A stretch of DNA of 64,000 nucleotides from Protaetiibacter larvae (GTDB lineage Bacteria; Actinomycetota; Actinomycetes; Actinomycetales; Microbacteriaceae), in assembly GCF_008365275.1 (NCBI RefSeq), contig NZ_CP043504.1:62001-126000 (forward strand), written 5' to 3'. Made by a program: the position numbers and the translations under genes. Below are positions 29,498-49,157 of the stretch, in pieces. Position 1 is the stretch's first letter. Each line of letters starts with the position of its first letter. The notes beneath the pieces are model-generated. The model had not been told where the DNA came from, made no database searches, and saw only the letters and a program-made list of their open reading frames with translations.

Positions 29498-30676
29498 TCA
29501 GCTCGCGGCGACGCTCACCGAGGCGGCGACGCTCAAGACACCGCTGTACGCGCTCTTGTCCACGACCTCGATCTCTCGCGCTCGCGGCAGATCGACCACA
29601 GTGCCGAGCGACTTCGTCCCGAGCTTGACGTGGACGTAGTACTGGCCGCGACCGAGTCGCAACCCCGGGAAGCTGAAGGTGACCGAGCGGCGACCCTCGA
29701 TGCGTCCGGTCTCGACACCCAGCAGCTCCGTGTTCGTCCCGTACACCCTCATGCCGAGGGGAGTCTCGAAGGCTGCGGCGGCATACCACCCCTCGAGCGG
29801 GTGATCGGATTCGACCTCCATCACCACTCGGACATCGTCTCCCGGCACGATCTCGTCGACATCGGAGCCGTCGACCCCCAGGACGCGAGTCGAATGAACG
29901 CGCATCCCCCGGGCCGCCTCGATCTCGCTCTTGTCACGATCGGCTTCGAATCCGTCACGCAGCACACGCAAGGCCGTCGCGGTGTCACCGTCGAACGTCA
30001 TCCGACCGGACTGAAGCACGATTCCGCGGGTGCAGATGCTGCCGATCGACTCCGCGGAGTGGCTCACCAGCACGATCGTGCGCCCGTCCTCCTGGAACGA
30101 CCGCACCTTGTCGAGGCACTTCCGCTGGAACGGCTCGTCGCCGACCGCCAGCACCTCGTCGATGAGCAGGATCTCCGGGTCGACGTGCACGGCGACCGCG
30201 AAGGCGAGCCGGACGTACATCCCCGAGGAGTAGAACTTGACCTGGGTGTCGATGAACTTCTCGATCCCGGAGAACTCGACGATGTCGTCGAAGTAGAGAT
30301 CCGTCTGCTTCGTCGTGAGCCCCAGGATCGCCGCGTTCAGGTAAACGTTCTCACGGCCCGTGAGGTCGGGATGGAATCCGGCACCGAGCTCGAGGAGCGC
30401 GGCGAGTCGCCCCCGTGAACGCACGCTGCCGGTCGTCGGCTGGATGATGCCGCCGATGACCTTCAAGAGCGTGCTCTTGCCGGAGCCGTTCGCGCCGATC
30501 AGCCCCAGGGTCTCGCCGCTCGCGACATCGATGTCGATGTCGCGCAGTGCCCAGAAGTCCTCTCTTCCGAGGCTTCGGTTGCGGAAGTTGAGAAGGCGCT
30601 CCTTGAGCGACTTCTCCTTGTGCAGAATGAAACGCTTCGAGACGTCGTCAACCGAGATCACGGTGCTGGCAGACAT
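29498..30676 (-). CDS. wzt: Polysaccharide ABC exporter, ATP-binding subunit with Wzt-type C-terminal domain
   Basis: A 392-aa protein. The ABC domain (1-245) has Walker A GANGSGKST (61-69), signature YSSGM (149-153), Walker B ILLIDE (169-174) and the switch histidine in LVSHS (206). Residues about 255-385 form a beta-sandwich Wzt_C domain (VVMEVESDHPLEGWYAAAAFE, then the RRSVTFSFPGLRLGRGQYYVHV stretch), which in O-antigen exporters reads the chain-end modification. It pairs with the ABC-2 permease at 37001-37900, although the genes are 6 kb apart and on opposite strands. It exports a lipid-linked glycan across the membrane. Confidence 0.9.
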   Translation of the reverse strand: MSASTVISVDDVSKRFILHKEKSLKERLLNFRNRSLGREDFWALRDIDIDVASGETLGLIGANGSGKSTLLKVIGGIIQPTTGSVRSRGRLAALLELGAGFHPDLTGRENVYLNAAILGLTTKQTDLYFDDIVEFSGIEKFIDTQVKFYSSGMYVRLAFAVAVHVDPEILLIDEVLAVGDEPFQRKCLDKVRSFQEDGRTIVLVSHSAESIGSICTRGIVLQSGRMTFDGDTATALRVLRDGFEADRDKSEIEAARGMRVHSTRVLGVDGSDVDEIVPGDDVRVVMEVESDHPLEGWYAAAAFETPLGMRVYGTNTELLGVETGRIEGRRSVTFSFPGLRLGRGQYYVHVKLGTKSLGTVVDLPRAREIEVVDKSAYSGVLSVAASVSVAAS

Positions 30677-30781: not shown

Positions 30782-32359
30782 GTGCGCATCCTGGTGATCT
30801 CCGATCTCCTGCCGCCGCGCATGCTGGGGGGCTTCGAGCTCGCCTGCCGCAACCTGTCGCAGGGGCTCCGGGACCGGGGCCATGAGGTGCTCGTCCTCAC
30901 CACCGCCACCGATCGCGCCGCACCCGAACAGGACGGATGGGTCGACCGCTGTCTCGCCCTGCACGAGCTGTTCGTGAACGTGAACCTCGAAGACGACGGC
31001 ATCGGTCGTCTGAACCGGTTCGAGTCCCGCGTTTCGACCGTGGGCAACTCGCTCATCGTGCTCGACCGGATCCGTTCGTTCGCACCCGACCACATCCTGA
31101 TGTTCAACCTGTTCGGAATCGGCGGCATCGGGATCCTCGACACGGTTCGGCGCACCGGCATCCCCTGGACGCTCAATCTCGGCGACAACGTTCCGGGCGC
31201 CCTGCTCGACGGCACCTCGGGGGCGATCCGCGAACTGTACGACGTGCCGGGCGGACTCTTCGCGTCGGGGTCGTACGCCATCGTCAGCGAGACCTTGCGC
31301 GATGAGGTGATCGCCACGGGAGTGCCACTGGGGCCTGTCGAGGTGATCCCCCGCGGCGCGTTGTATCCCGACCTTGCCCGAACCCGCGACTACCGCGACG
31401 GCGGTGTGACGCGGTTCGTGGCCGCCGGCATACTCTCCCCGCACAAGGGCGTCGACTTGATGATCGACGCGGCGGCCGGGCTTGTCGAACAGGGCCTCGA
31501 CGGCTTCCGCCTCGAGATCTACGGAGACGGCCTCGTCGACCACTACCGTTCTCGCATCGCCGAGCGCGGGCTGACCGGGTTCGTCTCCATCCCCGGACGC
31601 GTGGATCAGCGTCGGCTGTTCGAGATCCACGCCGGTTCGGACGCATTCCTCTTCCCGACGTGGGAGCGCGAACCGGGCGCATCAGCACCTGTCGAGGCGG
31701 CATCGGTGGGCTGCGTGCCGATCATGACCGCGGACTGCGGACCGGCCGAGTACCTGGTCGACGGAGTCCACACGCTCAAGATCGCCCGCAATGCCCACGC
31801 CCTCGCCGACGCCATGGCGCGTGTCGTGAGAGGCGAAGTCGACCTCGCCGCCCTCGGCGCCGCCGGACGCCGCATCGCACGAGGCGATCTCTCCTTCTCG
31901 ACCTCGGTGGAACGCCTCGAGGCGTTTCTCGGGTCGGGCGATCACCGAGTTGCGCTTAAGCTGGACACGGACGCCATCGCCGCGGAGGTCATCCGCCTGG
32001 ATGATGCCGCACGCCGCGTCCTTCTCGACGAGCTCCGAGAGGGGAAGCAGATGGGAGAGTCCGAGGCGTCTCCGCCACGGGCATCGGCCGCGCGCCGCAT
32101 CGCCTCGCTTCCCGCCAGAGCCGTGCGTCGGCTCATTCGGCCGGCGATCTCAGCCGAACTCGCCGAGCAGCGCGACTTCCTCCGGGAGCAGCGCTCCCGG
32201 ATCGAGGCCGATCGAGAGGCACTCGCCGCCCGCGAGGCGCAACTCGCGGAGCGGGAGAAGGCGATGAACAGCCTCACCCGGGCGGTGCAGAAGGACATCC
32301 TCGCGACGAACCGACGCATCGATTGGCTCGAGAACGAACGGCAGCACCCAGGCGCATGA
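30782..32359 (+). CDS. GT4 glycosyltransferase with C-terminal coiled coil
   Basis: About 525 aa. The GT-B fold is recognised by VRILVISDLLPPRMLGGFE at the start, the FVAAGILSPHKGVDLMIDA strand, LEIYGDG, and the donor loop PTWEREPGASAPVEAASVG. From about residue 430 the sequence becomes basic, then heptad-rich (AEQRDFLREQRSRIEAD and AALAAREAQLAER), a coiled coil of about 60 residues for dimerisation or docking. GTG at 30782 is preferred because GGAG lies 6 bases upstream; ATG at 30770 is in frame but lacks a ribosome-binding site. A TAGCAT box is at 30743. It overlaps the acyltransferase gene by four bases. Confidence 0.85.
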   Translation: MRILVISDLLPPRMLGGFELACRNLSQGLRDRGHEVLVLTTATDRAAPEQDGWVDRCLALHELFVNVNLEDDGIGRLNRFESRVSTVGNSLIVLDRIRSFAPDHILMFNLFGIGGIGILDTVRRTGIPWTLNLGDNVPGALLDGTSGAIRELYDVPGGLFASGSYAIVSETLRDEVIATGVPLGPVEVIPRGALYPDLARTRDYRDGGVTRFVAAGILSPHKGVDLMIDAAAGLVEQGLDGFRLEIYGDGLVDHYRSRIAERGLTGFVSIPGRVDQRRLFEIHAGSDAFLFPTWEREPGASAPVEAASVGCVPIMTADCGPAEYLVDGVHTLKIARNAHALADAMARVVRGEVDLAALGAAGRRIARGDLSFSTSVERLEAFLGSGDHRVALKLDTDAIAAEVIRLDDAARRVLLDELREGKQMGESEASPPRASAARRIASLPARAVRRLIRPAISAELAEQRDFLREQRSRIEADREALAAREAQLAEREKAMNSLTRAVQKDILATNRRIDWLENERQHPGA

Positions 32360-34455
32360 GTGGCGCGCTGACCGCCGCCACCACCACTGTCGCGAGACCT
32401 CCAGGCACGCGACCGGCCGAATACCGACGTGACATCCAGTACCTCCGGGCGCTGGCGGTCGGTCTCGTGGTGCTCTACCACTTCTGGCCGGGCCGCATTC
32501 CCGGAGGGTTCGTCGGCGTCGACGTGTTCTTCGTCATCTCCGGCTACCTGATCACCGCGCACCTCATCGCCGGGCTGGCCCGCACCGGTCGCGTCGCGGT
32601 GTTCTCCTTCTGGGGGCGTCGGGTGCGTCGGCTCCTTCCGGCATCGTTCGCGACGCTTGCGGTCGCCGCGATCATGGTGGTCATCTGGATCCCCCCGTCG
32701 GTGCGCGCTCAGGGGCTTCGCGAGGTCATCGCATCCACCTTCTACGTCGAGAACTGGATACTCGCGGCCGACTCCGTCGACTACCTCAACGCCGCGAACC
32801 AGCCGTCCATCGTGCAGCACTTCTGGTCGCTCTCCGTGGAGGAGCAGTTCTACCTCGTCTGGCCGCTGCTGCTCGTCGCGGCCGTCGGGATCGCGGGTCT
32901 GCTGCTTCGACGCCGTGTCGCCGCACCCGAGAGCGTGGTCTCGGTCGCCCTCGTCATCGTCGCGGCCGCCTCGCTCGTCACCTCCGTGATCCTCACGGAG
33001 ACCGAGCCGAGCGTCGCCTACTTCGCGACCACGACGCGCGCCTGGGAATTCGCGGCGGGAGGCCTGATCGCCTCTCTCGCCGTGCTCCGAGGAGGGCCTC
33101 GTGGCATCCTCGCGCGAAGGGGCGCGCGATGGGGGGCGCGCATCGTCGGGATCGCCCTGGTGCTCGTCTCGGGCTTCGTCTACACCGGCGCGACACCCTT
33201 TCCCGGGTGGGCGGCGGCGCTGCCCGTGCTCGGGACGGCGATCGCGATCTGGGCGGGCATCGGAGCGGAATCCGCACACCGCAGCCGTCACGATCCGATC
33301 GAGATCATCGGAGATCGCTCGTACTCCATCTATCTGTGGCACTGGCCGCTGTTGATCGTCGCACCCTTCGCGCTCGGACACGCCCTCGGCGCGCTCGACA
33401 AGGTTCTGCTCCTGGTCGCGGTCGTGGTGCTCGCCGGCCTGAGCAAGCGGTGGATCGAGGATCCGGTGCGCCGCTGGCAGTGGCTCGGCGCGCGCCCCGC
33501 GCGAACATTCGTCGCGCTGGGGATCGCCACCGCGCTCCTCGTCGGCGCTGTCGGCACGACGAGCTGGGTGCTGCTGCGCTCATCGAGTCCCGCGGCCGAG
33601 ACGAGCACGGCCGAGATCGACGCCGGGATCTCCTGCTTCGCGTCCGACGCGCTGGTGTCGGCGGATCGCTGCGCCAACCCCTTCGCCGCCGATCGCGTCG
33701 ACACGGCATGGGCGAAGGACGACCGCGATGCGTACTGCATCGACGTCCCCGCCGCGGCCCAGCTGGGGTGCCCGCTCGGCGGCCCCGAGGACGCCGAGCA
33801 CACCCTCGCTCTCGTCGGCGACTCGCACGGCGCCTCCGTCGGGCAGCTGGTTCTCGCGTCGCTCCCGCCGGGGTGGCGCCTCATCTCCTACCTCGCGACC
33901 GGATGCCCAGGCATCACCCGGGTGGACATCGGCGCGCCGGGTCAAGGCGAGGCGGACCGTCGCGTGTGCGCCGAGTGGAGCACGCGCGTGCTCGATGATC
34001 TCGAGTCCCGCGAGGACGTCGACGCCGTGCTCTTCACCAACTTCACGACGCGCTACACCGACCCGGCCTCCGAGATGCCGCTGACCGAGAGCGCCATCGT
34101 CGAGAGCTGGAGCAGGCTCCAGGCGGCGGGCAAGACGGTGATCGCCCTCCGTGACATTCCCGGGACCACGGCGGGTGACATCCCCGCGTGCATCGACGCG
34201 TCGAACGGGATCGACGACCCGTGCACCACCCCGCGCGCCGATGCGCTCCCCGCCGATGTCCTCGCGGCCGCGGCGCGCGCCTCAGGGGCGGGGTACGTCG
34301 ACCTCAGCGATCGGTTCTGCGACGCGGAGCGATGCCACGCGGTGATCGGCGAGGTGATCGTCTACAGCGACGACAACCACGTGACGCGCACCTTCGCGCG
34401 CTCGCTCCGACCCGAGCTCCTCGCCGCGCTGGCGACAATGCTGCCGCCGAACTGA
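32356..34455 (+). CDS. OafA/OatA-like acyltransferase with SGNH domain
   Basis: A 699-aa protein. The N-terminal half is an Acyltransferase_3 membrane domain of about 10 helices: DIQYLRALAVGLVVLYHFWP with the key histidine, the VGVDVFFVISGYLI motif and SVEEQFYLVWPLLLVA. After a linker (about 400-440) the C-terminal half is an extracytoplasmic SGNH hydrolase-like domain with LVGDSHGASVG (block I serine) and YSDDNHVTRTFA (block V Asp/His). It should O-acylate sugars of the surface polymer or peptidoglycan. The ATG overlaps the preceding GT4 stop (ATGA); the longer in-frame extension lies inside that gene and is not used. Confidence 0.92.
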   Translation: MSGALTAATTTVARPPGTRPAEYRRDIQYLRALAVGLVVLYHFWPGRIPGGFVGVDVFFVISGYLITAHLIAGLARTGRVAVFSFWGRRVRRLLPASFATLAVAAIMVVIWIPPSVRAQGLREVIASTFYVENWILAADSVDYLNAANQPSIVQHFWSLSVEEQFYLVWPLLLVAAVGIAGLLLRRRVAAPESVVSVALVIVAAASLVTSVILTETEPSVAYFATTTRAWEFAAGGLIASLAVLRGGPRGILARRGARWGARIVGIALVLVSGFVYTGATPFPGWAAALPVLGTAIAIWAGIGAESAHRSRHDPIEIIGDRSYSIYLWHWPLLIVAPFALGHALGALDKVLLLVAVVVLAGLSKRWIEDPVRRWQWLGARPARTFVALGIATALLVGAVGTTSWVLLRSSSPAAETSTAEIDAGISCFASDALVSADRCANPFAADRVDTAWAKDDRDAYCIDVPAAAQLGCPLGGPEDAEHTLALVGDSHGASVGQLVLASLPPGWRLISYLATGCPGITRVDIGAPGQGEADRRVCAEWSTRVLDDLESREDVDAVLFTNFTTRYTDPASEMPLTESAIVESWSRLQAAGKTVIALRDIPGTTAGDIPACIDASNGIDDPCTTPRADALPADVLAAAARASGAGYVDLSDRFCDAERCHAVIGEVIVYSDDNHVTRTFARSLRPELLAALATMLPPN

Positions 34456-34456
34456 G

Positions 34457-35608
34457 TCAGCCGGCGAGGGCCTCGCGGTACAGCGCGAGAAGGTCCTCCG
34501 AGACACGCTCGTACGAGTAGCGCTCGGTGAATGCGATCGCAGCGGGGCTCGGCCACGTCGTCGGCGTGCGCTGCACGACGCGCGCGAGCTCGTAGTACGC
34601 GAAGGTGTCGGTGAGCTCGATGCAGTGCACGAGCGCGTTGAGCTCGCGGAATGTCTCGGTCGGGTACGCGACCGTCGGCATCGAGTTGGAGAGGGCGGTG
34701 GTGAGCGCCGCCGACGTGACCTGGGAGTAGTACTCGCCGTCGTACGGGTAGACCGCGATATCGCACTCGCGGACCATCGCGTCGAGTTCGAGATCGCCCT
34801 CGACGTACCCGGTGATGTACACGCGATCCTTCAGGCCGAGCTCGCGCACGAGGTCCGTCAGCTCGTCGTACACGGCGACGTCGTGGCTCGTCGGGTTGAT
34901 TCCGCCGATCACGGCGAGCTTGTAGTTGTCCGGCAGGAAGGTGAGCGCCTTGATCGCGGCGTCGACGCCCTTGTAGCGATGGAGGAACCCGATGGTGCAC
35001 AGGACCACGTCGTCCTTCTGCACGCGGAGGCCCTCTCGGATGCGCGTCGATTCCCGAACGTTCGTGGTGCGCTTGGCGGGCAGCACGAGCCGACGGATGC
35101 GTGCGGGGTCGACACCCGCGGCGACGAGCTCTCGGAACGCAGCCGAGTTGTGCACGATGAGCAGGTCGGCGGCGCGAAGCGGCGCGATCACCCGCTCGTC
35201 GAGCGCACGCCGCTCGGCGCGCGCTCGATAGTGGTTGAGGAACGCGCGAGGGCTGATCCCTGCGCGCGCCGGAACCGCAAGGTCGAGCACGCCGGGCGAG
35301 GTGTGCAATGTGACGATCAGGCGGGCCCCTGCGGCCCGAGCCGCCGCAACCGCGCGACCCATCTCGTCGCGGGAGTAGAAGCCCCACTCGTGCTGCACAT
35401 GCAGGATGTCGTACCCCCGGACCTCTTCCGCGAGCCGGTCCATCGCCGCGGCGTACTGGTCGTCCGGCAGCGTGCGAATCACGTTGGGCGAGAGGTCGAA
35501 GAACCGGTTCTCGACCTCGTCCGACGGTGCGAGCACCTCGAGGAAGGCCTCCTGATACTTGCCGATGCCGCACGCTTCGTCGTGGGTGCTGAAATGAAGG
35601 ACCTTCAT
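34457..35608 (-). CDS. GT4 family glycosyltransferase
   Basis: A 383-aa GT-B glycosyltransferase. Family features are VLHFSTHDEACGIGKYQEAF (acceptor-side start with the GIGKY loop), LHVQHEWGFYSRDE, IVTLHTSPG, LCTIGFLHRYKGVDAAIKAL and the donor region DIAVYPYDGEYYSQVTSAALTTAL. Cytoplasmic enzyme using a nucleotide sugar. The ATG overlaps the stop of the upstream TGIPRV glycosyltransferase by four bases, so the two are made together. The specific linkage cannot be inferred. Confidence 0.88.
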   Translation of the reverse strand: MKVLHFSTHDEACGIGKYQEAFLEVLAPSDEVENRFFDLSPNVIRTLPDDQYAAAMDRLAEEVRGYDILHVQHEWGFYSRDEMGRAVAAARAAGARLIVTLHTSPGVLDLAVPARAGISPRAFLNHYRARAERRALDERVIAPLRAADLLIVHNSAAFRELVAAGVDPARIRRLVLPAKRTTNVRESTRIREGLRVQKDDVVLCTIGFLHRYKGVDAAIKALTFLPDNYKLAVIGGINPTSHDVAVYDELTDLVRELGLKDRVYITGYVEGDLELDAMVRECDIAVYPYDGEYYSQVTSAALTTALSNSMPTVAYPTETFRELNALVHCIELTDTFAYYELARVVQRTPTTWPSPAAIAFTERYSYERVSEDLLALYREALAG

Positions 35609-36885
35609 GCCGCGGTGACGGCTCCAATCAGACGGTTGAGGACATCGACGACGTCGCTCCAGGGGGTGGGACGGTAACGCCGCACTCTACCGAGCGCTTC
35701 TTGGAGTTCGCTGGCTCCCGTCAGTCTCAGGATCGCCGCCATGCACTCCTCCTGGGAGAACGGATCGAAGTAGTCGATCAGCTCTCCGGCGATCTCGGGC
35801 ATGCTGCTCGAGCGGCTGGCGACCACGGGCTTGCCCCACGCGAGGCTTTCCGCGACGGGGAGACCCCACCCTTCGTACATGCTCGGGTAGATCGTGAAAC
35901 GACAGTTGGCGTAGAGCCACGCGAGCGCCTCATCGCTCGCGTCGCTCAGCACATGCACGCGGCCGCGCAGGGCGGGATCGTCCTGCAGCATCCGGAAGAC
36001 ATCGCCGGCATGCCACCCCTCGCGCCCGACGACCACCAGTGGGGGCAGGTCGATCTCACGCTCGACGGCCGCGCGGTACACGTAGTACAGCAGCACGTGG
36101 TTCTTCCGGGCCTCGACCGTGCCGACGCACAGCACGAACCCGTCCTCGCGGAGCTCGTCGGGAACCCCGGTCCGCTCGGGAGAATCGCGCACCGAGCCGA
36201 AGTCATCCCCGAGCCGGAACACCTCGACGGGGCCGTGGGCGACTCCCTCGGCCGCCGCCCACTCGACGAGGTCCCGCCGCGAGTTCTCCGAGATCGAGAG
36301 CACGAGATCGGTGACCGGGAGCACCTGGGTGAGATAGGAGGTCATCGGCACGGTCGAGTGGCCGGACAGGTGCGGCGCCACGATCGGGAGCATGTCGTAG
36401 GAGAACTGGACCACCGCCGCACCGCGCACGTCGGCGGCGAGGATCGCGTCGATGTAGCTCTGGTCATGCCACTGGCCCATGAAGGTGACGAACACGTCCT
36501 GCGCGCCGGGCAGCACCTCGCGATGCTCGAGCGCACGGAAGCGCGCCAGACGACGGGCGAGCGCGCTCACCCGTTCCGAGCCCCTCGCCGCGCCGAGTCG
36601 GCGCAGTTCACGGCTCGCCCGCCCGGCGCCGCCGAACCGGAGCGCGCGCGCGACACCGACACCCCGACCGCCGCGCAGCCGATATGCGATGCCGCGGCCG
36701 TGCTGTTCCGCGGTGCCGAGCGGATCGACCTCCACGAAGCGCCGCGTCTCGTTCTCCCAGACGACGAACACATCGTCGGGTCTGGCCCGACGGCAGTACT
36801 CGCTGATCACCCGCGGGATGCCCGTCACCCGCCCCGGCCAGTGCGCCAGGTAGGTGATGTCGACGATGCGGCGCAAGGGCGTCAC
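35605..36885 (-). CDS. GT4 glycosyltransferase with TGIPRV N-terminal signature
   Basis: A 426-aa protein starting at GTG 36885, with AGGAG eight bases upstream; the frame is open further upstream but that part runs into the divergent promoter. The N-terminus VDITYLAHWPGRVTGIPRV shares the DxT...TGIxRV signature with the genes at 39444-40841 and 40838-42286. The C-terminal GT-B half has LCVGTVEARKNHVLLYYVY and YEGWGLPVAESLAWGKPVV, including the conserved E-x7-E donor motif. It is likely to extend a surface glycan. Divergent from the wzm gene across a 115-base gap that holds both promoters. Confidence 0.87.
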   Translation of the reverse strand: MTPLRRIVDITYLAHWPGRVTGIPRVISEYCRRARPDDVFVVWENETRRFVEVDPLGTAEQHGRGIAYRLRGGRGVGVARALRFGGAGRASRELRRLGAARGSERVSALARRLARFRALEHREVLPGAQDVFVTFMGQWHDQSYIDAILAADVRGAAVVQFSYDMLPIVAPHLSGHSTVPMTSYLTQVLPVTDLVLSISENSRRDLVEWAAAEGVAHGPVEVFRLGDDFGSVRDSPERTGVPDELREDGFVLCVGTVEARKNHVLLYYVYRAAVEREIDLPPLVVVGREGWHAGDVFRMLQDDPALRGRVHVLSDASDEALAWLYANCRFTIYPSMYEGWGLPVAESLAWGKPVVASRSSSMPEIAGELIDYFDPFSQEECMAAILRLTGASELQEALGRVRRYRPTPWSDVVDVLNRLIGAVTAA

Positions 36886-36939
36886 TGGGGGGTCTCCTCG
36901 GGATCGCAGGCCCCGAGCGAATGCGCGTCGGGCCGAGAC

Positions 36940-36945
36940 TAAGAT
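36940..36945 (+). promoter_or_regulatory. -10 box for the wzm gene
   Basis: TAAGAT, near-consensus, with no convincing -35. It predicts a leader of about 50 bases before the GTG at 37001. Confidence 0.5.
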
Positions 36946-37000
36946 AGCCGGAGTCATCGGGCGCCCCCTGGGCGTCCCCGCTCTGAGGAAGTCCTTCCAC

Positions 37001-37900
37001 GTGACCAGTGCGATCCGCACCCCCGCCCATCCCGAGGGCGAACTCAACGTCGTCACCCCGCCGCGCGGGCTCATCGCCGGCACCGCATTCGCGATCCGCG
37101 GGGTGTGGAGCCGGCGTGAACTCCTCGGGCTGCTCGTCCGGCGTGAGCTGAAGTCGCGCTACAAGAACAGCTCGCTCGGTTTCGTGTGGAGCCTGCTCCG
37201 CCCCATCGCGATGCTCCTCATCTATTACGTCGCCGTCGGCAAGTTCCTCGGGGCCGAGCGCGCGATCCCCGAGTTCGCGATCTTCATCTTCTGCGGCTTG
37301 ACGGTGTGGGGGCTCTTCTCGGAGATCATCGGCACGACGACCACCTCGATCGTCGGCAACGCGGGCCTCGTCAAGAAGATCTATCTTCCGCGCGAGTTGT
37401 TCCCCCTCGCTGCCGTAGGGTCCTCGCTGTTCAACTTCGCGGTGCAGTTCGTCGTGCTGATCGCGGCCACCCTCATCCTCGGCAGCCCCCCGAACCTGGA
37501 CGCGCTGTGGGCGGTTCCCCTCGGACTCGCCACGATCACGGTGTACGCATTCGCGATCGGGCTGCTGCTCTCCGCACTCAACGTCTACCTCCGCGACATC
37601 CAGCACCTGGTGGAGATCATCCTGCTCGTGCTGTTCTGGGCGTCGCCGATCGTCTACTCGTATCAGCTCGTGCACGATGTGCTGGGCGGCAACTGGATCG
37701 AGCAGGTGTTCCTCGCGAACCCCGTGACCCCGGTCGTCCTCATCTTCCAGCAGTCGCTCTGGTCGGCCGGCGATGGCCAGCTGTTCCCCCCCGATCTCTA
37801 TCCCCGTCTCGGGATCACGCTCGCCATCAGCCTCCTGCTCACCTGGATCGCTCAACGCATCTTCGCGCGGCTCGAAGGCAACTTCGCCCAGGAGCTCTGA
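37001..37900 (+). CDS. wzm: Polysaccharide ABC exporter permease (ABC-2 type)
   Basis: A 299-aa protein. The start GTG at 37001 has GAGGAAG upstream. After a cytoplasmic N-terminus containing LLVRRELKSRYKNSSLGFVWSLL, the classic ABC-2/Wzm opening, six membrane helices follow, with the VKKIYLPRELFPLA coupling segment and the conserved YLRDIQHLVEIILLVLFWASPIVY stretch (split here: YLRDIQHLVE, then FWASPIVY). It forms the transmembrane half of the exporter with the Wzt-type ATPase at 29498-30676. The secreted DUF4214 protein follows 46 bases downstream. Confidence 0.93.
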   Translation: MTSAIRTPAHPEGELNVVTPPRGLIAGTAFAIRGVWSRRELLGLLVRRELKSRYKNSSLGFVWSLLRPIAMLLIYYVAVGKFLGAERAIPEFAIFIFCGLTVWGLFSEIIGTTTTSIVGNAGLVKKIYLPRELFPLAAVGSSLFNFAVQFVVLIAATLILGSPPNLDALWAVPLGLATITVYAFAIGLLLSALNVYLRDIQHLVEIILLVLFWASPIVYSYQLVHDVLGGNWIEQVFLANPVTPVVLIFQQSLWSAGDGQLFPPDLYPRLGITLAISLLLTWIAQRIFARLEGNFAQEL

Positions 37901-37946
37901 GCGGACGCCCCCTCCGCGCGCCACGGCTTACCATGGGAGGGAAGTC

Positions 37947-39443
37947 GTGACGATGGGGGCACTGATGCGACACCTGATCAGGCCGATGCTGGCCGCCATG
38001 GTGGCGGTCGTCGTCGCCCTCGGCCTCGTCGTCGCGCCGACGACGACGACGAGTCGGGCAGTCGCCGCACCCCCCGTTGCGGACTTCGATCCGGGGTTCA
38101 TCATCAGTGATCGGAACTTCTTCGACCCGAACGCGATGACGGAAGCGGAGATCCAGGGCTTCCTCAACGCCCAGGTGCCGCGATGCGCACCGGGTGGCGT
38201 GTGCCTGAAGGACTTCTCGCAGGTGACGGTGGAGCGTCCGGCCACTCCGATGTGCGCCGCGTACACGCCGGACGGCGTGGCCGAGTCCGCGGCTCGCATC
38301 ATCTGGAAGGTCGCGCAAGCGTGCGGCATCAGTCCCAAGGTCATCCTGGTCACCCTCCAGAAGGAACAGGGTCTCGTCACCTCGACAGACCCGTCGAGTG
38401 CCAAGTACCGCTACGCGATGGGCGCAGACTGCCCCGACACTCCGCTGGGCTGCGACGTGAACTTCTCCGGCTTCTTCGTGCAGGTGCACCGCGGCGCCTA
38501 CCTGATGAAGCGCTACACCCAACCCGCCGGCACCGGGCCGGGGACGATCTACACGGACCGCTTCGACCTGCGCTATCCGGTCGGCGCCGTGTCGAACATT
38601 CTGTACCACCCCGTCACGGCGACGCTCAACTGCGGCACCAAACCGGTTCTCGTGAAGAACATGGCGACGCATGTCCTCTACATCTACACGCCGTACACCC
38701 CGGACAACTCGGCGATGGAGAACCTGTACGGCACCGGCAACGACTGCGCTTCCTACGGCAACCGCAACTTCTGGCGCAACTACTACGACTGGTTCGGCGA
38801 CCCGCAGGGCGGCGACCCGTCGTTCATCGCGGCGATCTTCACCGACTTCCTCGGCCGCACCCCCGACGATGCGGCGCTCCGAGCATGGGACTGGCAGCTC
38901 GAGAGAGGGCGCACGCGCGCATCGCTCGCGGCGGACATCGTGTACAGCGACGAGTACCGCACCCAGCGGATCGCCGAGGCCTACCAGCATGTTCTCGGTC
39001 GGGGGCCGGACTCCAACGGCCTCGCGTACTGGCTTTCGGTGACGGTGCGCGGAGGGCTGCCGATCGACGAGGTCGAGCACTACTTCCTGCGTTCCGACGA
39101 GTACTACGCCTCGATCGGCGGATCGCCCGAACAGTTCGTCGAAGACGTCTACCAGCGGATGCTCGCCCGCTCGGCGACCGACACCGACCAGCTGTACTGG
39201 GCACCGATCGTGCTCCAATACGGGCGCGAGGCGGTGGTCTGGTCGATCTACAACTCTCCCGAGTCGTCGTATCGCCGCGTGGATGCCATGTATCAGAAGC
39301 TGCTCGCGCGAGACTCGGACGAGGGCGGCAGGCTCTACTGGGGCCCGCGGGTGATCGCCCTCGGTGACAACGAGATCCGGGCGGCCCTCGTCGACAGCGT
39401 CGAGTACGCCGAGCGCGCGAGGACCCGCTTCCCGTTCAGTTGA
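37947..39443 (+). CDS. Secreted protein with lysozyme/hemagglutinin-like domain and DUF4214 repeats
   Basis: A 498-aa protein. The GTG at 37947 has GGGAGG six bases upstream (ATG 37953 is an alternative). A signal peptide ends near residue 40 (VVVALGLVVAP...SRAVAAPP). Residues ~50-285 form an actinobacterial secreted domain often labelled hemagglutinin-like, with paired cysteines (80/86, 103/126, 162/169, 229/267) and the segment VTLQKEQGLVTS, where Glu140 sits as in lysozyme-like transglycosylases. Residues 298-495 contain four DUF4214-type repeats beginning FTDFLGRTPD, YQHVLGRGPD, YQRMLARSAT and YQKLLARDSD. Probably a surface or wall protein. Its setting among glycosyltransferases suggests that it is glycosylated or binds the glycan; this is inference. 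Confidence 0.85.
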   Translation: MTMGALMRHLIRPMLAAMVAVVVALGLVVAPTTTTSRAVAAPPVADFDPGFIISDRNFFDPNAMTEAEIQGFLNAQVPRCAPGGVCLKDFSQVTVERPATPMCAAYTPDGVAESAARIIWKVAQACGISPKVILVTLQKEQGLVTSTDPSSAKYRYAMGADCPDTPLGCDVNFSGFFVQVHRGAYLMKRYTQPAGTGPGTIYTDRFDLRYPVGAVSNILYHPVTATLNCGTKPVLVKNMATHVLYIYTPYTPDNSAMENLYGTGNDCASYGNRNFWRNYYDWFGDPQGGDPSFIAAIFTDFLGRTPDDAALRAWDWQLERGRTRASLAADIVYSDEYRTQRIAEAYQHVLGRGPDSNGLAYWLSVTVRGGLPIDEVEHYFLRSDEYYASIGGSPEQFVEDVYQRMLARSATDTDQLYWAPIVLQYGREAVVWSIYNSPESSYRRVDAMYQKLLARDSDEGGRLYWGPRVIALGDNEIRAALVDSVEYAERARTRFPFS

Positions 39444-40841
39444 TCACGCGCCGAGCCCGCTGCGGATCGCCGACGCATAGCGCTCCCAGGAGCCCGGTTC
39501 GAGCCCCCGCGTCTCGGCGACCAGACGCGCATGGAACGCATCGTCGGTGAGCAGCGCGACGACGGCGTCCTCGATCGCGGACATCGACCTGGGGTCCACG
39601 AGCACGGCGCCACGTCCTTCGCCGATGTCCCGCTGACTGCCGAAATCCGCGGTCACGACGGGGGTGCCAACCGCGAGCGACTCGGCGACCGGCAGCCCGA
39701 ATCCCTCGTTGAGCGAGCAGAACACACTCGCGCGCGCGAGCCGGTACAACGCGGCGACCCGCTCATCGGGGACGTTGCTCGCCAGCACGAGCGGGCGGCC
39801 CGCCTCGCGCAGTCGGGTCGCGAAGGCGGTGAACTCCTCGGCCTTCCATGAGTTGCCGCCGACGAGCACGGCCGCGAAGTCGTGACCGGACCGCCATGCG
39901 TTCTCGAAGGCCGCGAGCACCGTGAGGTGGTTCTTGCGCGGCTCGTGGCTGCCCACGACCAGCACCACGGGCCGCTCGCCGATCCCCAAGGCGGCGCGGA
40001 CGGCCCCCTCCGTCTCCGGCAGGGACTGCAGTGGCGTGATCGGCAACTCGACGTCGATCACCCGAGGCGCGCGGAGTCCCGCCGACGGCAGCATCCGCGC
40101 CCAGCCCGCGAACTCCGTCGCGGCGGCGCGAGAGATCGCGGCGACGACATCGAACCGAGCGAGTCCCGAGAGGTATCTCGCGAAGGCGCCGGGCATGCCC
40201 GGTCCCGTGGTCTCGGCCGTCGTGATCGGGATGCAGTCGAATCCGACCGCGAGACTCGCATCAGCACCGAAACGGGCGATCGATGCGAGCCGCTGCGCGC
40301 GATCCCGATCCACGGCGATCTCCGGAAGGATCAGGCGCGCCCCCACCGGGACCAGCTGAACGCGAGGCCCCCCCGCGGAACTCCCGCCGGCACGCTCCGC
40401 CTCGCCCTCGTCAGCGCGCAACAGCTCGCCGGTCAACCGCCGCCAGACCACGAGCTCGAGAGGTTCGACCTCGCTCCAGGCGCGCACGAGTTCCCGGGCG
40501 ACGCGCTGGATCCCGGTCGTGTAGGGGCTCGACGCGGTGTCCGTGACGTCGACGACCAACCCCGACGCCGCTCGGACCGGAAGAGCCCCGCGGGCACGGG
40601 AGAGGCGACGCCCGGCATGCACGGTCGCCTGCCACCAGCGCTCCGGATCGTCGAGGAGTTGCGCGTGGTCGTCGGCGACCTGGAGCTCGGTCGGGATCCG
40701 TCCGGTGAGGAACGAGCGCGCCAGGTAGACCCCGCGGGGGCCCACGGCCTGCACCCGCTCGAGCAGCGCGTCATCGCTGAGGGCCGCGGCATGAAGTGCT
40801 TCGGCGAGGCCATCGCGCCGACCGTCGAAGATGGCGCTCAC
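39444..40841 (-). CDS. GT4 glycosyltransferase with TGIQRV signature
   Basis: A 465-aa protein. The GTG at 40841 overlaps the stop of the next gene upstream (GTGA). An N-terminal ~85-residue helical extension precedes VVDVTDTASSPYTTGIQRVARELV. The GT-B C-terminal half shows VVGSHEPRKNHLTVLAAFE, VLVGGNSWKAEE and the donor motif NEGFGLPVAESLAVGTPVV. It ends with no gap against the convergent DUF4214 protein gene. Third gene in the 74-aa / GT / GT run reading away from the nucleotide-sugar dehydrogenase. Confidence 0.88.
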   Translation of the reverse strand: MSAIFDGRRDGLAEALHAAALSDDALLERVQAVGPRGVYLARSFLTGRIPTELQVADDHAQLLDDPERWWQATVHAGRRLSRARGALPVRAASGLVVDVTDTASSPYTTGIQRVARELVRAWSEVEPLELVVWRRLTGELLRADEGEAERAGGSSAGGPRVQLVPVGARLILPEIAVDRDRAQRLASIARFGADASLAVGFDCIPITTAETTGPGMPGAFARYLSGLARFDVVAAISRAAATEFAGWARMLPSAGLRAPRVIDVELPITPLQSLPETEGAVRAALGIGERPVVLVVGSHEPRKNHLTVLAAFENAWRSGHDFAAVLVGGNSWKAEEFTAFATRLREAGRPLVLASNVPDERVAALYRLARASVFCSLNEGFGLPVAESLAVGTPVVTADFGSQRDIGEGRGAVLVDPRSMSAIEDAVVALLTDDAFHARLVAETRGLEPGSWERYASAIRSGLGA

Positions 40842-42286
40842 GAGGCAGACCCCTCCCGCACGACGGCCCAGAGCTCTGCAGCGTAGTCCGACCACGCGCG
40901 CGGCGGGCGCGCGCCGGCCGCGGCCCGGAGCTCGTCGAGAAGCCGGTCGTCACTCAGCAGCCGACGCATGCCGCCGCGGATCGCGTCGATGCTTCTCGGG
41001 TCGACGGTCAGGCATCCGCCGCCGGCGGCGATCTCGGCCATCGAGCCATAGTCGCTCGTGAGCACCGGGACACCGGCGGCGAGCGACTCCACGATCGGCA
41101 GACCGAACCCTTCGTGAAGCGACACCAGCACGCTGAAGCGCGCGCCCGCGTAGAGCTCGTAGAGCTCCGCGTCGGAGACGTCGCGTCTCACCGCCACGTC
41201 GTGCCCGCGGGCCCGCGCTCGTCGCACCCGACGATCGAAGGGGGTCGTGTGGGATCGGGAGCCGCCGCCCACGAAGACAAGCCGGAATCGCATGCCCTCC
41301 GTCTGCAGGCCGAGCGCGGCCGCAAGCACCGCCTCCTGGTTCTTGCGCGGCTCGTGGCTCCCCACGCAGATCACGAGGGGCACTCCGTCGGCGTCGGGGA
41401 CGTGGCCGCGCGTCGAGCCCGACTCCTCGGCGAGTCGGATCGTGCGCACCGCAGGACCCGCCACCCCTTGCGCGGAGAGCGTCGAGGCGAAGCCGGCGAA
41501 CTCGCTCGCGGCCGACTCGCTGACCGCGCACACCGTCTGGGCGTGCTTCACGACCGAGAGGAACAGGGCGAACCTGTCGGATTCGATCGGATCGATGAGG
41601 TCGGCGCTGACGACCGGGATGGCATCGTGTCCGACGATCACGACACGCGACCCCGACGACTCCGCGAGCGAAGCCAGCACGGGGATCCGCTCGCGGGAGG
41701 GGACCTCGGGGAGCACGACGGTCGTGCGCCACGGCACCACGATCTCGGCGACGTCGACCTCGCGGATCTCGGCCGGCGTGTGGTCCCCCCAGGCGAGCAG
41801 GCGCACGCGTTCCGGGGCGGTGAGGCCGCGGAACGCCTGCGCCTCGCCGGTCCAGGCGACGGGGACGAACTCCCCGTGCGGCCAATGGGGCAGGGTGCTG
41901 CGCACGACCCTTTGGATACCCGTGTTGTGATCACTCGTCGCAGAGTGGCCCGCGTCGACGACCGGCAGCTCCTCGACGATGCGCAGACGACGCGCGGCAC
42001 CCGTCGACGCATCGTCGCGCGCACCTGCCGAACCGAGCGCGGCGGCGATCCGCGATCGGTCGTCCGCGAGCTGCAGCTCGCGTCGGAACGCGGCGAGCTC
42101 ATCGGCAGTCGGAAAGGAGCCCGCCACCCCGATGTACACGAGCCAGGCGGTCGACGGATCGCGGACGAGGGAGAGGGCCAGGTCGAGGCGCTCCGACACA
42201 TCCCCCGTGGGCGGCTCGACCCCGAGCGCCGCGAGCACACTCCGGATCCGGTCGTCGAGAGCGGCGCGGAAGTCGTCGGGGGTCAC
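40838..42286 (-). CDS. GT4 glycosyltransferase with TGIQRV signature
   Basis: A 482-aa protein. The GTG at 42286 overlaps the stop of the 74-aa gene (GTGA). An N-terminal helical extension (about 1-100, LALSLVRDPSTAWLVYIG) is followed by VVDAGHSATSDHNTGIQRVVRSTL and a GT-B fold with VCVGSHEPRKNQEAVLAAAL and LHEGFGLPIVESLAAGVPVL. It is paralogous to the next gene over its whole length, so the pair arose by duplication. It probably acts on the same glycan or glycoprotein. Confidence 0.88.
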   Translation of the reverse strand: MTPDDFRAALDDRIRSVLAALGVEPPTGDVSERLDLALSLVRDPSTAWLVYIGVAGSFPTADELAAFRRELQLADDRSRIAAALGSAGARDDASTGAARRLRIVEELPVVDAGHSATSDHNTGIQRVVRSTLPHWPHGEFVPVAWTGEAQAFRGLTAPERVRLLAWGDHTPAEIREVDVAEIVVPWRTTVVLPEVPSRERIPVLASLAESSGSRVVIVGHDAIPVVSADLIDPIESDRFALFLSVVKHAQTVCAVSESAASEFAGFASTLSAQGVAGPAVRTIRLAEESGSTRGHVPDADGVPLVICVGSHEPRKNQEAVLAAALGLQTEGMRFRLVFVGGGSRSHTTPFDRRVRRARARGHDVAVRRDVSDAELYELYAGARFSVLVSLHEGFGLPIVESLAAGVPVLTSDYGSMAEIAAGGGCLTVDPRSIDAIRGGMRRLLSDDRLLDELRAAAGARPPRAWSDYAAELWAVVREGSAS

Positions 42287-42507
42287 CGTCGCAGCACCTT
42301 CCGCAGCTCACCCGCGAGCACCTCGGCGGTCGTTCGCACGCCGAGCTCCCGCACGAGACGTCGCGCGGTGCGGGCGCGCCGCACGAGCACTCCTCCGCGA
42401 CTCGACCCGCGCCTGCGTCGCGACGCCTCGCGGGAGAGACGGAGGAACCAGTCGTCAAGCGCCCGACTCGCCTCCACGGCATCCACAGGCGGGTCTACAG
42501 ACGACAC
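42283..42507 (-). CDS. Small basic protein of unknown function
   Basis: A 74-aa protein with a GTG start and GAGGAG five bases upstream, and a GTGA overlap into the following glycosyltransferase, which together support translation. It is helical and strongly basic in the middle (SREASRRRRGSSRGG), with VRRARTARRLVRELG and a C-terminal LAGELRKVLRR. No family is recognised. Position at the head of the glycosyltransferase pair suggests a leader or partner protein. Confidence 0.55.
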   Translation of the reverse strand: MSSVDPPVDAVEASRALDDWFLRLSREASRRRRGSSRGGVLVRRARTARRLVRELGVRTTAEVLAGELRKVLRR

Positions 42508-44578: not shown

Positions 44579-45606
44579 AGAAGAAGGTCGTCGTCACCGG
44601 ATCCGCCGGGTTCATCGGCGGATACATCGTCGAGGAGCTCCTCGCGAAGGGATACCGGGTCGTCGGGGTGGACAACTACTCGAAGTACGGCCCCGTCAGG
44701 AAGTCCTACGACGACCACCCGGACTACGAACTCGTCGTGGGCGACGTCCAGGACGTCGAGCTCATGACGCGCGTGCTCTCGGACGCGCACCACTTCATCG
44801 CGGGCGCCGCCCTCATCGGCGGCATCTCCTACTTCCACACTTACGCATATGACCTGTTGGCCAAGAACGAGCGCATCATCGCCTCGAGCGTCGACGCTGC
44901 GATCGCCGCCAAGGCGGCCGGCGGTCCGCTCGAGAAGGTCACCTACATGTCGAGTTCGATGGTGTTCGAGTCGGCCGACCGCTGGCCGAGCAAGGAGGGC
45001 GACGAGCGAATCGTCCCGCCGCCGCTGTCGAGCTACGGCTTTCAGAAGCTCGCCGTCGAGTACTTCGCGCGCGCCGCATGGGACCAGTACAAGCTCCCCT
45101 ACACGATCGTGCGGCCCTTCAACTGCGTGGGGATCGGCGAGAGCCGCGCGCTCGGCGACGTCGAGATCGACTCCGGCAACGTCAAGCTCGCGATGAGCCA
45201 CGTGGTGCCGGACCTCGTGCAGAAGGTGCTCAAGGGCCAGGACCCGCTGCACATTCTCGGAAGCGGCGAGCAAGTGCGTCACTACACCTACGGTGGCGAC
45301 CTCGCCCGCGGCATCGTGCTGACTCTCGACCATCCGGCCGCCCTCAACAACGACTTCAACATCTCGACGGCGGTCGGCCACTCGGTCGCCGAGCTCGCCG
45401 AGGTCATCTGGCGCAAGATCAAGGGCGCCGACATCCCGCTGCGCCTCGCCCACGACGAGGCCTTCGAGTACGACGTGCAGAAGCGCGTGCCGGATGTCAG
45501 CAAGGCCCAGGAGGTGCTCGGCTTCTCCGCCGACACCACGCTCGAGGAGATGCTCGACGAGGTCATCCCGTGGATCCAGAACGCGGTCGCCGAAGGGACC
45601 ATCTGA
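44575..45606 (+). CDS. NAD-dependent epimerase/dehydratase
   Basis: A 343-aa extended SDR enzyme: TGSAGFIGGYIVEELL NAD motif, MSSSMVFESADRW with catalytic serines, and Tyr/Lys in SSYGFQKLAVEYF. RPFNCVGIGESRALGDVEID and VRHYTYGGDLARGIVL are the substrate-binding segments. It probably acts on a nucleotide sugar, perhaps the uronic acid product of the dehydrogenase two genes upstream, by C4 or C5 epimerisation or decarboxylation. AGAGGAA precedes the ATG; ATGA overlap with the GT2 gene. Confidence 0.88.
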   Translation: MKKKVVVTGSAGFIGGYIVEELLAKGYRVVGVDNYSKYGPVRKSYDDHPDYELVVGDVQDVELMTRVLSDAHHFIAGAALIGGISYFHTYAYDLLAKNERIIASSVDAAIAAKAAGGPLEKVTYMSSSMVFESADRWPSKEGDERIVPPPLSSYGFQKLAVEYFARAAWDQYKLPYTIVRPFNCVGIGESRALGDVEIDSGNVKLAMSHVVPDLVQKVLKGQDPLHILGSGEQVRHYTYGGDLARGIVLTLDHPAALNNDFNISTAVGHSVAELAEVIWRKIKGADIPLRLAHDEAFEYDVQKRVPDVSKAQEVLGFSADTTLEEMLDEVIPWIQNAVAEGTI

Positions 45607-45607
45607 G

Positions 45608-47116
45608 GTGTCGACCGGGCTCGCGGCCCGATCCTGGGCGTTCCTGACCTCACCGCGTGCCACCTGGTGGCTCGTCGGGGCGCTCGTCGCGGTGGGCAGC
45701 CTCATCCGCATCCCGCAGCTCGGTCACACGCTCGCGGAGGCCTACGCCTTCCGCCAGACGCAGACCGCGTTCGTCGCCCGCGAGTACTCGGAGCACGGCA
45801 TCGACCTGTTCCGCACACCACTGCCGGTTTTCGGACCCGACGCGGACGTGCCGATGGAGTTCCCGCTGTGGCAGGGGATCGCAGCCCTGTTCATGATGGC
45901 GGGCCAGCCGGCCGACGTCGCGGTGCGGACCCTCGCGCTCCTGTCGTTCCAGCTGTGCGCCGTGCTGCTCGCGGTTCTCGTGCGCCGGTGGCACGGCGCC
46001 GCCGCCGCGGTCGTATCGGTCGGGCTGCTGCAGTTCCTGCCTTTCGGGCTGCTGTGGGGCGCCGCGTCGCTCATCGACTTCTTCTCGGTCGCGCTCTCAC
46101 TGCTCATGGTCATCGGGATCGACGCGTGGTTCGAGCGAAGGCACCTCCCCTGGCTCGCCGTCGGCTCGGCCGCCGCGGTGCTCGCATTCCTCGTGAAGGT
46201 GACGACCGTTCCGAGCTGGGGGCTGCTCCTCGTCGTGTCGCTCGTGCTCATGCTGCGTGCCCGGGGATGGGTCGGAAGCTGGCGCCGACTGCTGGCCGGC
46301 CTCATCGGACCGGTTGCGGGGTTCGCCGCCGCGCTCGCCTGGACCGCCTATGCCGACGCGGTCAAGCGCGCCGAGCCGCTCACGCAGTTCCTCACGAGCT
46401 CCCAGCTGCGCGACTGGAACTTCGGCACGCTCAGCCAGCGCGTCGAGGCGGACGGCTACTGGACGATCCTGGGACGGCTGGCGGGCGAGATCGCCGGGCC
46501 GATGCTCTTCGGCCTCGCCATCGCCGTCGCCGCCGCGATCTTCCAGTCGCGCTTCGAGGATCGGCTCCGCAGCCTCGGCTGGCTGCTCGTCGCGGTCTCC
46601 GCACCGCTGGTCTTCTTCAATCTCTACGTCGTGCACAGCTACTACCTGATCGCGATCTACCCCGCGATCGTCGCGGCGATGGCGGTCGGCGGCGTCTGGC
46701 TCCTCCGCACGCTCCGGGTGCAGCGCTGGCAGCGGGTCGCGCTCGCGGCTCTCGCGACGGGAGTGCTTTTCGCGGGAACCGTGCTCAGCCCGCAGGGGCA
46801 CGCCAACGTCGCCCAATGGGCCAGAGGCAACGCCGAGCCGGCGCTCTCCCGGCTGCTCGCCGAGCGCACGCCCGAGGGATCCCCCGTGATCATCGTCGGG
46901 TGCGACTGGGATCCGTCGTTCCTGTACTACGCGCAGCGTGCGGGCATGATGTTCCGCGGATCCGATGCGGGCGACACCTGGTCGCGTCACGACATCGGGG
47001 CCTATGCGGCGCTCTACAACTGCCGCCCCGACCTCGACCCGGCCGACTATCTTCCGGCCGGAGTCGTCGCCGTCGGGACCGACGACCCGGGGCTCTACCG
47101 TCTCGAACAGCGGTGA
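45608..47116 (+). CDS. GT39/ArnT-like membrane glycosyltransferase
   Basis: A 502-aa protein with about 11 helices, GTG start one base after the epimerase stop. Helix 1 is followed by an external loop with HTLAEAYAFRQTQTAFVAREY, the position at which GT-C enzymes of the ArnT/PMT type carry the catalytic acidic residues (here Glu and possibly downstream Asp). PMEFPLWQGIAALFM and the C-terminal soluble part (LLAERTPEGSPVIIVGCDWDPSFLYYAQR) agree with the family. It would transfer a sugar from polyprenyl phosphate outside the membrane, which fits the DPM1-like gene two positions upstream. Confidence 0.8.
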   Translation: MSTGLAARSWAFLTSPRATWWLVGALVAVGSLIRIPQLGHTLAEAYAFRQTQTAFVAREYSEHGIDLFRTPLPVFGPDADVPMEFPLWQGIAALFMMAGQPADVAVRTLALLSFQLCAVLLAVLVRRWHGAAAAVVSVGLLQFLPFGLLWGAASLIDFFSVALSLLMVIGIDAWFERRHLPWLAVGSAAAVLAFLVKVTTVPSWGLLLVVSLVLMLRARGWVGSWRRLLAGLIGPVAGFAAALAWTAYADAVKRAEPLTQFLTSSQLRDWNFGTLSQRVEADGYWTILGRLAGEIAGPMLFGLAIAVAAAIFQSRFEDRLRSLGWLLVAVSAPLVFFNLYVVHSYYLIAIYPAIVAAMAVGGVWLLRTLRVQRWQRVALAALATGVLFAGTVLSPQGHANVAQWARGNAEPALSRLLAERTPEGSPVIIVGCDWDPSFLYYAQRAGMMFRGSDAGDTWSRHDIGAYAALYNCRPDLDPADYLPAGVVAVGTDDPGLYRLEQR

Positions 47117-47188: not shown

Positions 47189-48172
<984 letters not shown>

Positions 48173-48182
48173 CAACCCGCCG

Positions 48183-49157
48183 ATGACACGCGTCTTCATC
48201 ACCGGGATCAGCGGTCAGGACGGCAGCTACCTCGCGGACCGACTGGTCGCCGAGGGCGCCGAGGTGCATGGACTCATCCGGGGCTGGGATGACGACGCGC
48301 GCGCCCTGCACGAGCGCCATCCCGGCATCGATCTGCACGAGGGCGACCTCTCCGACGCGACCGGGCTCGCCGACCTCGTGCGCGGGCTCGCGCCGTCCGA
48401 GATCTACAACCTCGCCGGCATCAGCTCAGTCGCACAGTCCTGGCGTGAACCCGTGCTGACCGGTCAGATCACGGGCGTCGCCGTCACCGCGCTGCTGGAT
48501 GCAGCCTCCCGGCTCCCCGGGGAGGTGCGGGTGTTCCAGGCGTCCAGCTCGGAGATCTTCGGCGACCCCGAGCACGCGCCGCAGGACGAGTCGACGCCGA
48601 TCGCACCGAACTCGCCGTACGGAGTCGCGAAGGCCTACGCGCACCGGATGGCCGCGCTGTTCCGTGCCCGTGGGCTGTTCGTCGCGACGGGGATCCTGTA
48701 CAACCACGAGTCCCCGCGTCGCCCCGAGGCGTTCGTCACCCGCAAGATCACGGCGGCCGCCGCGCGCATCTCGCTCGGCCTGCAGGAGACCCTCGAGCTC
48801 GGCGACCTCACGGTCGAGCGCGACTGGGGCTGGGCGCCCGACTACGTGGACGCGATGCTCCGCGCTACCCGGCACGACGTCCCGGGCGACTTCGTGATCG
48901 CCACGGGGAAGAGCCACACGGTCGCCGACTTCGTCGCGGCGGCATTCCGCGCGGCGGGCGTGGCGGACGGCGCCGACCGCGTCCGGGTGAACCCGGAGTT
49001 CATCCGACCCGCCGAGATCTCGCGGATGCGGGGCGACGCGGGACGGGCGCGCGCAGAACTCGGCTGGGCGCCGAGCGTCGACTTCGACGGGCTCGTGAGC
49101 CGGATGGTCGAGCACGATCTCTCCCTGATCCGGGAGGGCGCGGGGTCGGCAGGGTGA
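48183..49157 (+). CDS. GDP-mannose 4,6-dehydratase-like enzyme, copy 2
   Basis: A 324-aa paralogue of the preceding gene: TGISGQDGSYLADRL, the SSSEIFG motif, YGVAKAYAHRM and ILYNHESPRRPEAFVTRKI. Catalytic residues are retained, so it is not an obvious reductase. It may have a different substrate or act as a 4-reductase/epimerase partner. Strand-2 loop LIRGWDDDARAL differs from copy 1. GTGA overlap joins it to the next glycosyltransferase. Confidence 0.82.
   Translation: MTRVFITGISGQDGSYLADRLVAEGAEVHGLIRGWDDDARALHERHPGIDLHEGDLSDATGLADLVRGLAPSEIYNLAGISSVAQSWREPVLTGQITGVAVTALLDAASRLPGEVRVFQASSSEIFGDPEHAPQDESTPIAPNSPYGVAKAYAHRMAALFRARGLFVATGILYNHESPRRPEAFVTRKITAAAARISLGLQETLELGDLTVERDWGWAPDYVDAMLRATRHDVPGDFVIATGKSHTVADFVAAAFRAAGVADGADRVRVNPEFIRPAEISRMRGDAGRARAELGWAPSVDFDGLVSRMVEHDLSLIREGAGSAG

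Follow-up and report, generated by a model that had tools for sequence, protein, structure and literature searches.

The surface-polysaccharide cluster described here encodes a tandem pair of glycosyltransferases (GT pair) with which DUF4214, a repeat module of secreted wall proteins, co-occurs across genomes. We propose, with moderate confidence, that a wall glycan exported by Wzm/Wzt and probably containing a 6-deoxyhexose is the docking polymer for DUF4214-tagged wall enzymes, the binding and the hydrolase activity being predicted from co-occurrence, module swapping, and fold.

Gene Content of the Cluster

The window analyzed, a 64-kb stretch (positions 62001-126000 of contig C1 in the 2.56-Mb genome G000), contains at ~25-62 kb a surface-polysaccharide cluster recognizable from its gene content, including two O-antigen-ligase-like proteins, a Wzt with a Wzt_C domain, several GT4 and GT2 glycosyltransferases, an AT3-SGNH acyltransferase, Wzm, a UDP-sugar dehydrogenase, a GMD and a GMD-like SDR, and RmlA/B/D-type genes (table 1). 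The ABC-2 permease, together with an ATPase carrying the glycan-recognition domain Wzt_C (E 1.5e-13), marks this as a Wzm/Wzt-dependent polysaccharide locus. The gene scan at 24.8-62 kb revealed no initiating sugar-phosphate transferase acting on undecaprenyl phosphate. Wzm more likely starts at an in-frame GTG (37001) than at 36854, and the gene for the secreted 498-aa protein begins on the same strand 46 bp past the stop codon of Wzm, the two probably forming one transcript.

Table 1. Features of the cluster, in window coordinates
Feature	Position	Strand	Basis
Wzt ATPase with Wzt_C domain	29498..30676	-	ABC_tran 5.6e-20, Wzt_C 1.5e-13
AT3-SGNH acyltransferase, probable glycan decoration	32323..34455	+	domain search
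GT4 glycosyltransferase, 4 bp overlap with GT_A	34457..35608	-	domain match
GT_A, the more distant third GT4 (TGIPRV); motif VDITYLAHWPGRVTGIPRV	35605..36885	-	Glycos_transf_1 E 3.6e-17
Wzm-type ABC-2 permease	36854..37900	+	ABC2_membrane E 3.1e-19
Secreted 498-aa protein: signal-like N-terminus, NFFD domain, DUF4214 x4	37947..39443	+	Pfam, model
NFFD domain, residues ~42-288	38070..38810	+	conservation, fold comparison
DUF4214 x4 module, proposed glycan-binding wall anchor	38811..39440	+	Pfam, model
GT_B, tandem-pair GT4 (TGIQRV); motif VDVTDTASSPYTTGIQRV	39444..40841	-	Glycos_transf_1 E 2.2e-22
GT_C, tandem-pair GT4 (TGIQRV); motif VDAGHSATSDHNTGIQRV	40838..42286	-	Glycos_transf_1 E 1.4e-21
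GMD-type gene	47189..48172	+	TIGR01472 404.8 bits; best PDB match 1rpn
Second GMD-like SDR, candidate GDP-4-keto-6-deoxymannose reductase	48183..49157	+	1rpn, 2pk3 scores

The two O-antigen-ligase-like (Wzy_C) proteins are neighbors at 25994-28599 and adjoin an acyl-CoA dehydrogenase; the same pair is also found in loci L083, L085, and L086. An 821-aa protein at 52317-54782 lacks any Pfam family and is related to proteins of further polysaccharide loci (e.g., L048). Elsewhere in the window, the minus strand carries an unannotated 2448-aa open frame at 2765-10111 with a coding-like GC3 of 0.87.

TGIxRV Glycosyltransferases and Their Locus in Other Genomes

A preliminary description of this DNA named three GT4 enzymes with a TGIxRV motif, lying on both sides of an exported four-repeat DUF4214 protein and an ABC permease. 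A six-frame scan of the 64 kb finds exactly three occurrences of the motif, all on the minus strand and all in GT4 proteins according to Pfam, and the coordinates, Pfam matches, signal-like N-terminus, and a 14-helix model bear out the arrangement. GT_B and GT_C are a close paralogous tandem pair with a 4-bp overlap; GT_A is far more distantly related (match E 1e-21). Common to GT_B and GT_C is an N-terminal domain of ~100 aa without a Pfam family (mutual homology E 2.9e-18); the idea that these domains are cryptic DUF4214 was rejected, as profile comparison gave a probability of <1%. The pair constitutes a discrete family present in 12 of 149 relatives and 35 of 300 family members, and a search for plasmid relatives of the GT found none.

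Among 67 related loci, the 53 with flanks of useful length were used for counts. Nearly all have the GT pair (52), Wzm (48), and Wzt (47), and 43 have both GMD-type genes. This recurrent company of nucleotide-sugar genes and Wzm/Wzt points to export of a lipid-linked polysaccharide. DUF4214 and NFFD, the N-terminal domain of the 498-aa protein, are each encoded in 20 of the 53, and 32 have one or both, so that the linkage recurs in the neighborhood check that had been set beforehand, and an absence of recurrent linkage was not found. The hosts of these loci are Microbacteriaceae, Cellulomonadaceae, Geodermatophilaceae, and Nakamurella; the Rathayibacter loci have neither a DUF4214 nor an NFFD gene nearby.

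Co-occurrence of DUF4214 with the GT Pair

All 7 DUF4214-positive genomes among the 149 relatives (12 of them GT positive) have the GT pair (Fisher 2.8e-9), as do all 14 among the 300 family members (35 GT positive; Fisher 5.8e-15), both values being uncorrected for relatedness. Counted by genus, 8/8 DUF4214-positive genera are GT positive (Fisher 2.7e-7). On an rpoB tree of 100 genomes, the minimum number of changes is 11 for the GT trait and 6 for DUF4214, and in independent contrasts on this tree 5-6 of 6 agree with the association and none is opposed (p 0.03-0.06). The same contrasts for CWB2, a control wall module, gave 2 with and ~2 against and hence no trend; CWB2 occurs in 30 of the 149 genomes, including 2/12 of the GT-positive and 0/7 of the DUF4214-positive ones.

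Physical linkage alone does not account for this pattern. Most DUF4214 ORFs (38/47) are either on a different contig from the GTs or separated from them by >20 kb, and simple hitchhiking is therefore ruled out as the sole cause. The converse dependence is looser, with 21 of the 35 GT-positive family genomes lacking DUF4214; in these, other modules may substitute for it. A class-level sample held too few positives and included two exceptions, the clearest being a four-repeat DUF4214 protein (L170:859-2712) in the mycobacterium-like genome G509, which is without the GT pair, and the other a weak single DUF4214 match in G444, where the pair is also absent. The rule is thus not universal.

Fold and Hosts of the DUF4214 Module

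DUF4214 (PF13946) matches the 498-aa protein with 81 bits against a curated cut-off of 23.2 (E 6.5e-23), three stretches pass alone, and the 14-helix model together with the alignment resolves four repeats of ~50 aa. In relatives, the four-repeat module is C-terminal to Pfam-identified Amidase_2, SpoIID, and CarboxypepD_reg domains and, by inspection, occurs on GH25-, NlpC/P60-, deacetylase-, and protease-like secreted wall proteins. In loci of Cellulomonas, Actinotalea, and Geodermatophilaceae, the Amidase_2 and SpoIID versions adjoin the same GT pair; in L107, L136, L150, and L157 (Geodermatophilaceae, Cellulomonadaceae-type), one or both of these versions adjoin it. G000 also encodes, ~100 kb away from its GT pair, a second DUF4214 protein with a secreted repeat-type N-terminus (C1:386-2920, locus L063). 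Since the majority of DUF4214 genes are distant from the GTs and encode other enzymes, gene distribution suggests that the module serves as an interchangeable wall anchor rather than as a substrate for glycosylation.

The module was modeled with a pLDDT of 96.8. In Foldseek, phycobilisome linkers were matched, and the second-ranked entry was the N-terminal domain (NTD) of RsaA bound to LPS (6t72, E 0.017, prob 0.97); VIA gave Z 7-10 for the linkers, 6.2-6.3 for RsaA over 118 residues, and 3.8 for the next unrelated chain. The linkers are the nearest relatives of DUF4214 in both fold and sequence. The likeness to RsaA is one of structure only, an all-helical match of middling strength with low TM-scores (0.26-0.28); RsaA is absent at E<=1 from the DUF4214 sequence-profile matches, and PF13946 is silent in a Caulobacter vibrioides control genome. 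A common helical fold of DUF4214 and RsaA proves no function.

A Conserved Domain in the Secreted Protein

The preliminary description overlooked that residues ~42-288 of the 498-aa protein form a separate conserved domain, NFFD. Neither Pfam nor NCBIfam contains a family for it, and comparison with PDB sequence profiles and PHROGs gave nothing meaningful and no sequence tie to any known hydrolase. NFFD is found in 96 of the 149 relatives, mostly Microbacteriaceae, and is near-universal in that family. The domain has an invariant Cys; Lys139-Glu140 is invariant across 43 sequences, and helix 130-141 of the predicted model terminates at E140. The model, whose pLDDT is partly <60, resembles the phage lysins 8ej5 (Z 7.1) and 6o43 (Z 6.2) and, weakly, MltD (Z 3.6). 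Based on this fold and the invariant Glu, NFFD is likely a lysozyme-like wall hydrolase or remodeling enzyme.

The modules C-terminal to NFFD interchange, comprising CWB2, LGFP with FG-GAP, CBM_4_9, DUF4214, or unknown repeats, and a version with CBM_4_9 and no DUF4214 also adjoins the same GT pair. Most sampled GT-negative relatives likewise have an NFFD gene in a Wzm/Wzt locus, suggesting that NFFD is a general component of the wall-glycopolymer loci of the family.

Probable Identity of the Exported Sugar

The product of 47189-48172 scores slightly below the curated equivalog cut-off of 415 for TIGR01472, and its closest PDB match is 1rpn, a GMD (388 bits). The second SDR scores 269 bits against the same GMD and 93 bits against the RMD 2pk3, and an outright assignment as RMD was dropped for this reason. 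GMD and RMD have been described as close relatives (King et al. 2009, cited in PMC9415975). The sugar of the exported polymer is probably a 6-deoxyhexose derived from GDP-mannose; naming it D-rhamnose would be a guess, given the GMD-like scores of the second SDR. In Curtobacterium, another member of the Microbacteriaceae, a rhamnan has been reported from the cell wall (Zaychikov et al. 2021, cited in PMC9862828), and a literature search for Rathayibacter with a rhamnomannan locus found, among the papers listed, none combining both.

Proposed Role and Alternative Explanations

We predict that a polysaccharide of the wall or surface is assembled by the cluster's enzymes in the cytoplasm, where a GDP-linked 6-deoxyhexose such as D-rhamnose, supplied by the GMD and its neighbor, would feed GT_B and GT_C, which with GT_A and others would polymerize or cap the chain. 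Wzm/Wzt, whose presence and recurrence are evident from gene content, would then export the polysaccharide. The 498-aa protein, encoded beside Wzm, would be secreted and hydrolyze or remodel the wall through its putative lysozyme-like N-terminal domain, with the four DUF4214 repeats docking it on the exported polymer as a glycan-binding anchor. This role for DUF4214 is suggested by its genome-wide dependence on the GT pair, the swapping of modules, and the RsaA-like fold, and other DUF4214-tagged wall enzymes of the same genomes would share the same hook. A wider reading, offered tentatively as one that may well not hold, is that DUF4214, the phycobilisome linkers, and the RsaA NTD are one fold family in which DUF4214 and RsaA are surface-glycan lectins, and that actinobacterial DUF4214 is the dedicated anchor for the TGIxRV-pair polymer, which would organize a set of wall enzymes.

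The preliminary description had proposed a dedicated system that either glycosylates the secreted protein or uses it as a receptor for the exported glycan. The recurrent grouping in the flanked loci agrees with a dedicated system, and the close, recurrent linkage, together with a weak PMT_2-like protein at 45494-47116 that scores under the Pfam cut-off, could be taken to mean that the GTs and the ABC transporter glycosylate the DUF4214 protein. This is very improbable given that the GT pair accompanies nucleotide-sugar genes and Wzm/Wzt, that it also occurs beside CBM_4_9 versions of the neighbor, that most DUF4214 ORFs lack linkage to the GTs and encode unrelated enzymes, and that no Ser/Thr-rich linker was seen in the 498-aa protein. 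The glycosylation claim is therefore unsupported by both the export context and the unlinked, swappable nature of DUF4214, and the receptor claim survives only in the sense of binding a glycan, as the best explanation.

DUF4214 might instead be a protein-protein assembly module for a surface layer or scaffold, with its tie to the GTs reflecting a co-inherited surface-layer island or lifestyle. Phycobilisome linkers, the closest relatives, bind proteins and not sugars, and a surface-anchoring role of DUF4214 has been proposed for segmented filamentous bacteria (PMC12780176). We regard this alternative as unlikely in view of six independent lineages in which DUF4214 depends on one GT pair, with most DUF4214 genes unlinked to it, and of the replacement of DUF4214 by carbohydrate- or wall-binding modules. 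It is less probable still that these genes are ordinary neighbors, NFFD belonging to wall-glycopolymer loci generally, as its occurrence in GT-negative relatives would allow, and DUF4214 having come by chance with a horizontally moved cluster and no functional dependence. The restriction of unlinked DUF4214 genes to GT-positive genomes in the 149- and 300-genome samples and the independent contrasts argue against such chance association, leaving a docking polymer for DUF4214-tagged enzymes as our preferred explanation.

Comparison with Known Systems and Significance

The A-band pathway of Pseudomonas aeruginosa uses GT4 transferases and Wzm/Wzt. Our cluster resembles this D-rhamnan (CPA) system (WbpX/Y/Z, GMD, RMD; PMC9415975) in combining a GMD and a related SDR with GT4-type transferases, a likeness of gene content, and differs in that its second SDR is GMD-like, not RMD-like. 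CWB2 (PF04122) and LGFP, like DUF4214, can be exchanged on the NFFD domain and also occur on other wall enzymes, although CWB2 lacks any association with the GT pair. The phycobilisome linker domain (PF00427), despite its similarity, binds phycobiliproteins and is intracellular. The O-antigen bound by Caulobacter RsaA contains a 6-deoxyhexose made from GDP-mannose (perosamine pathway). The RsaA NTD (6T72) binds this O-antigen of N-acetylperosamine (PerNAc) and mannose directly, along its length, with Ca2+ (PMC6978808), so that, as proposed for DUF4214, a secreted protein is anchored on a polysaccharide of the cell surface by an all-helical fold; RsaA belongs, however, to a Gram-negative S-layer and has no detectable sequence relation to DUF4214.

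A parallel in logic is EpaU of Enterococcus faecalis, whose EPA locus encodes this EPA-binding autolysin (PMC13343894). Like EpaU, the 498-aa protein would be a peptidoglycan-active enzyme from a wall-polysaccharide locus with a C-terminal module docking on that polysaccharide. The binding is predicted here from co-occurrence and demonstrated for EpaU; module, catalytic domain, and polymer differ, EPA being a rhamnan with teichoic-acid-like decoration. The earlier view that no such actinobacterial pathway had been described is fair for the combination, and a literature search for DUF4214 together with glycosyltransferases found no paper; the parts, however, resemble ABC-exported O-polysaccharide or wall-glycopolymer loci and EpaU.

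This analysis defines a recurrent actinobacterial wall-glycan locus, comprising the GT pair, the GMD pair, Wzm/Wzt, and tagged wall enzymes, as well as an unnamed wall protein domain, NFFD, that nearly all Microbacteriaceae possess. The widespread DUF4214, whose role as a surface anchor had so far been only a guess (PMC12780176), gains a testable ligand and role, linking wall enzymes of Gram-positive bacteria to the O-antigen-anchoring fold of a Gram-negative S-layer. If the one-fold-family reading is true, the presence of DUF4214 in a genome would predict the TGIxRV-pair polymer.
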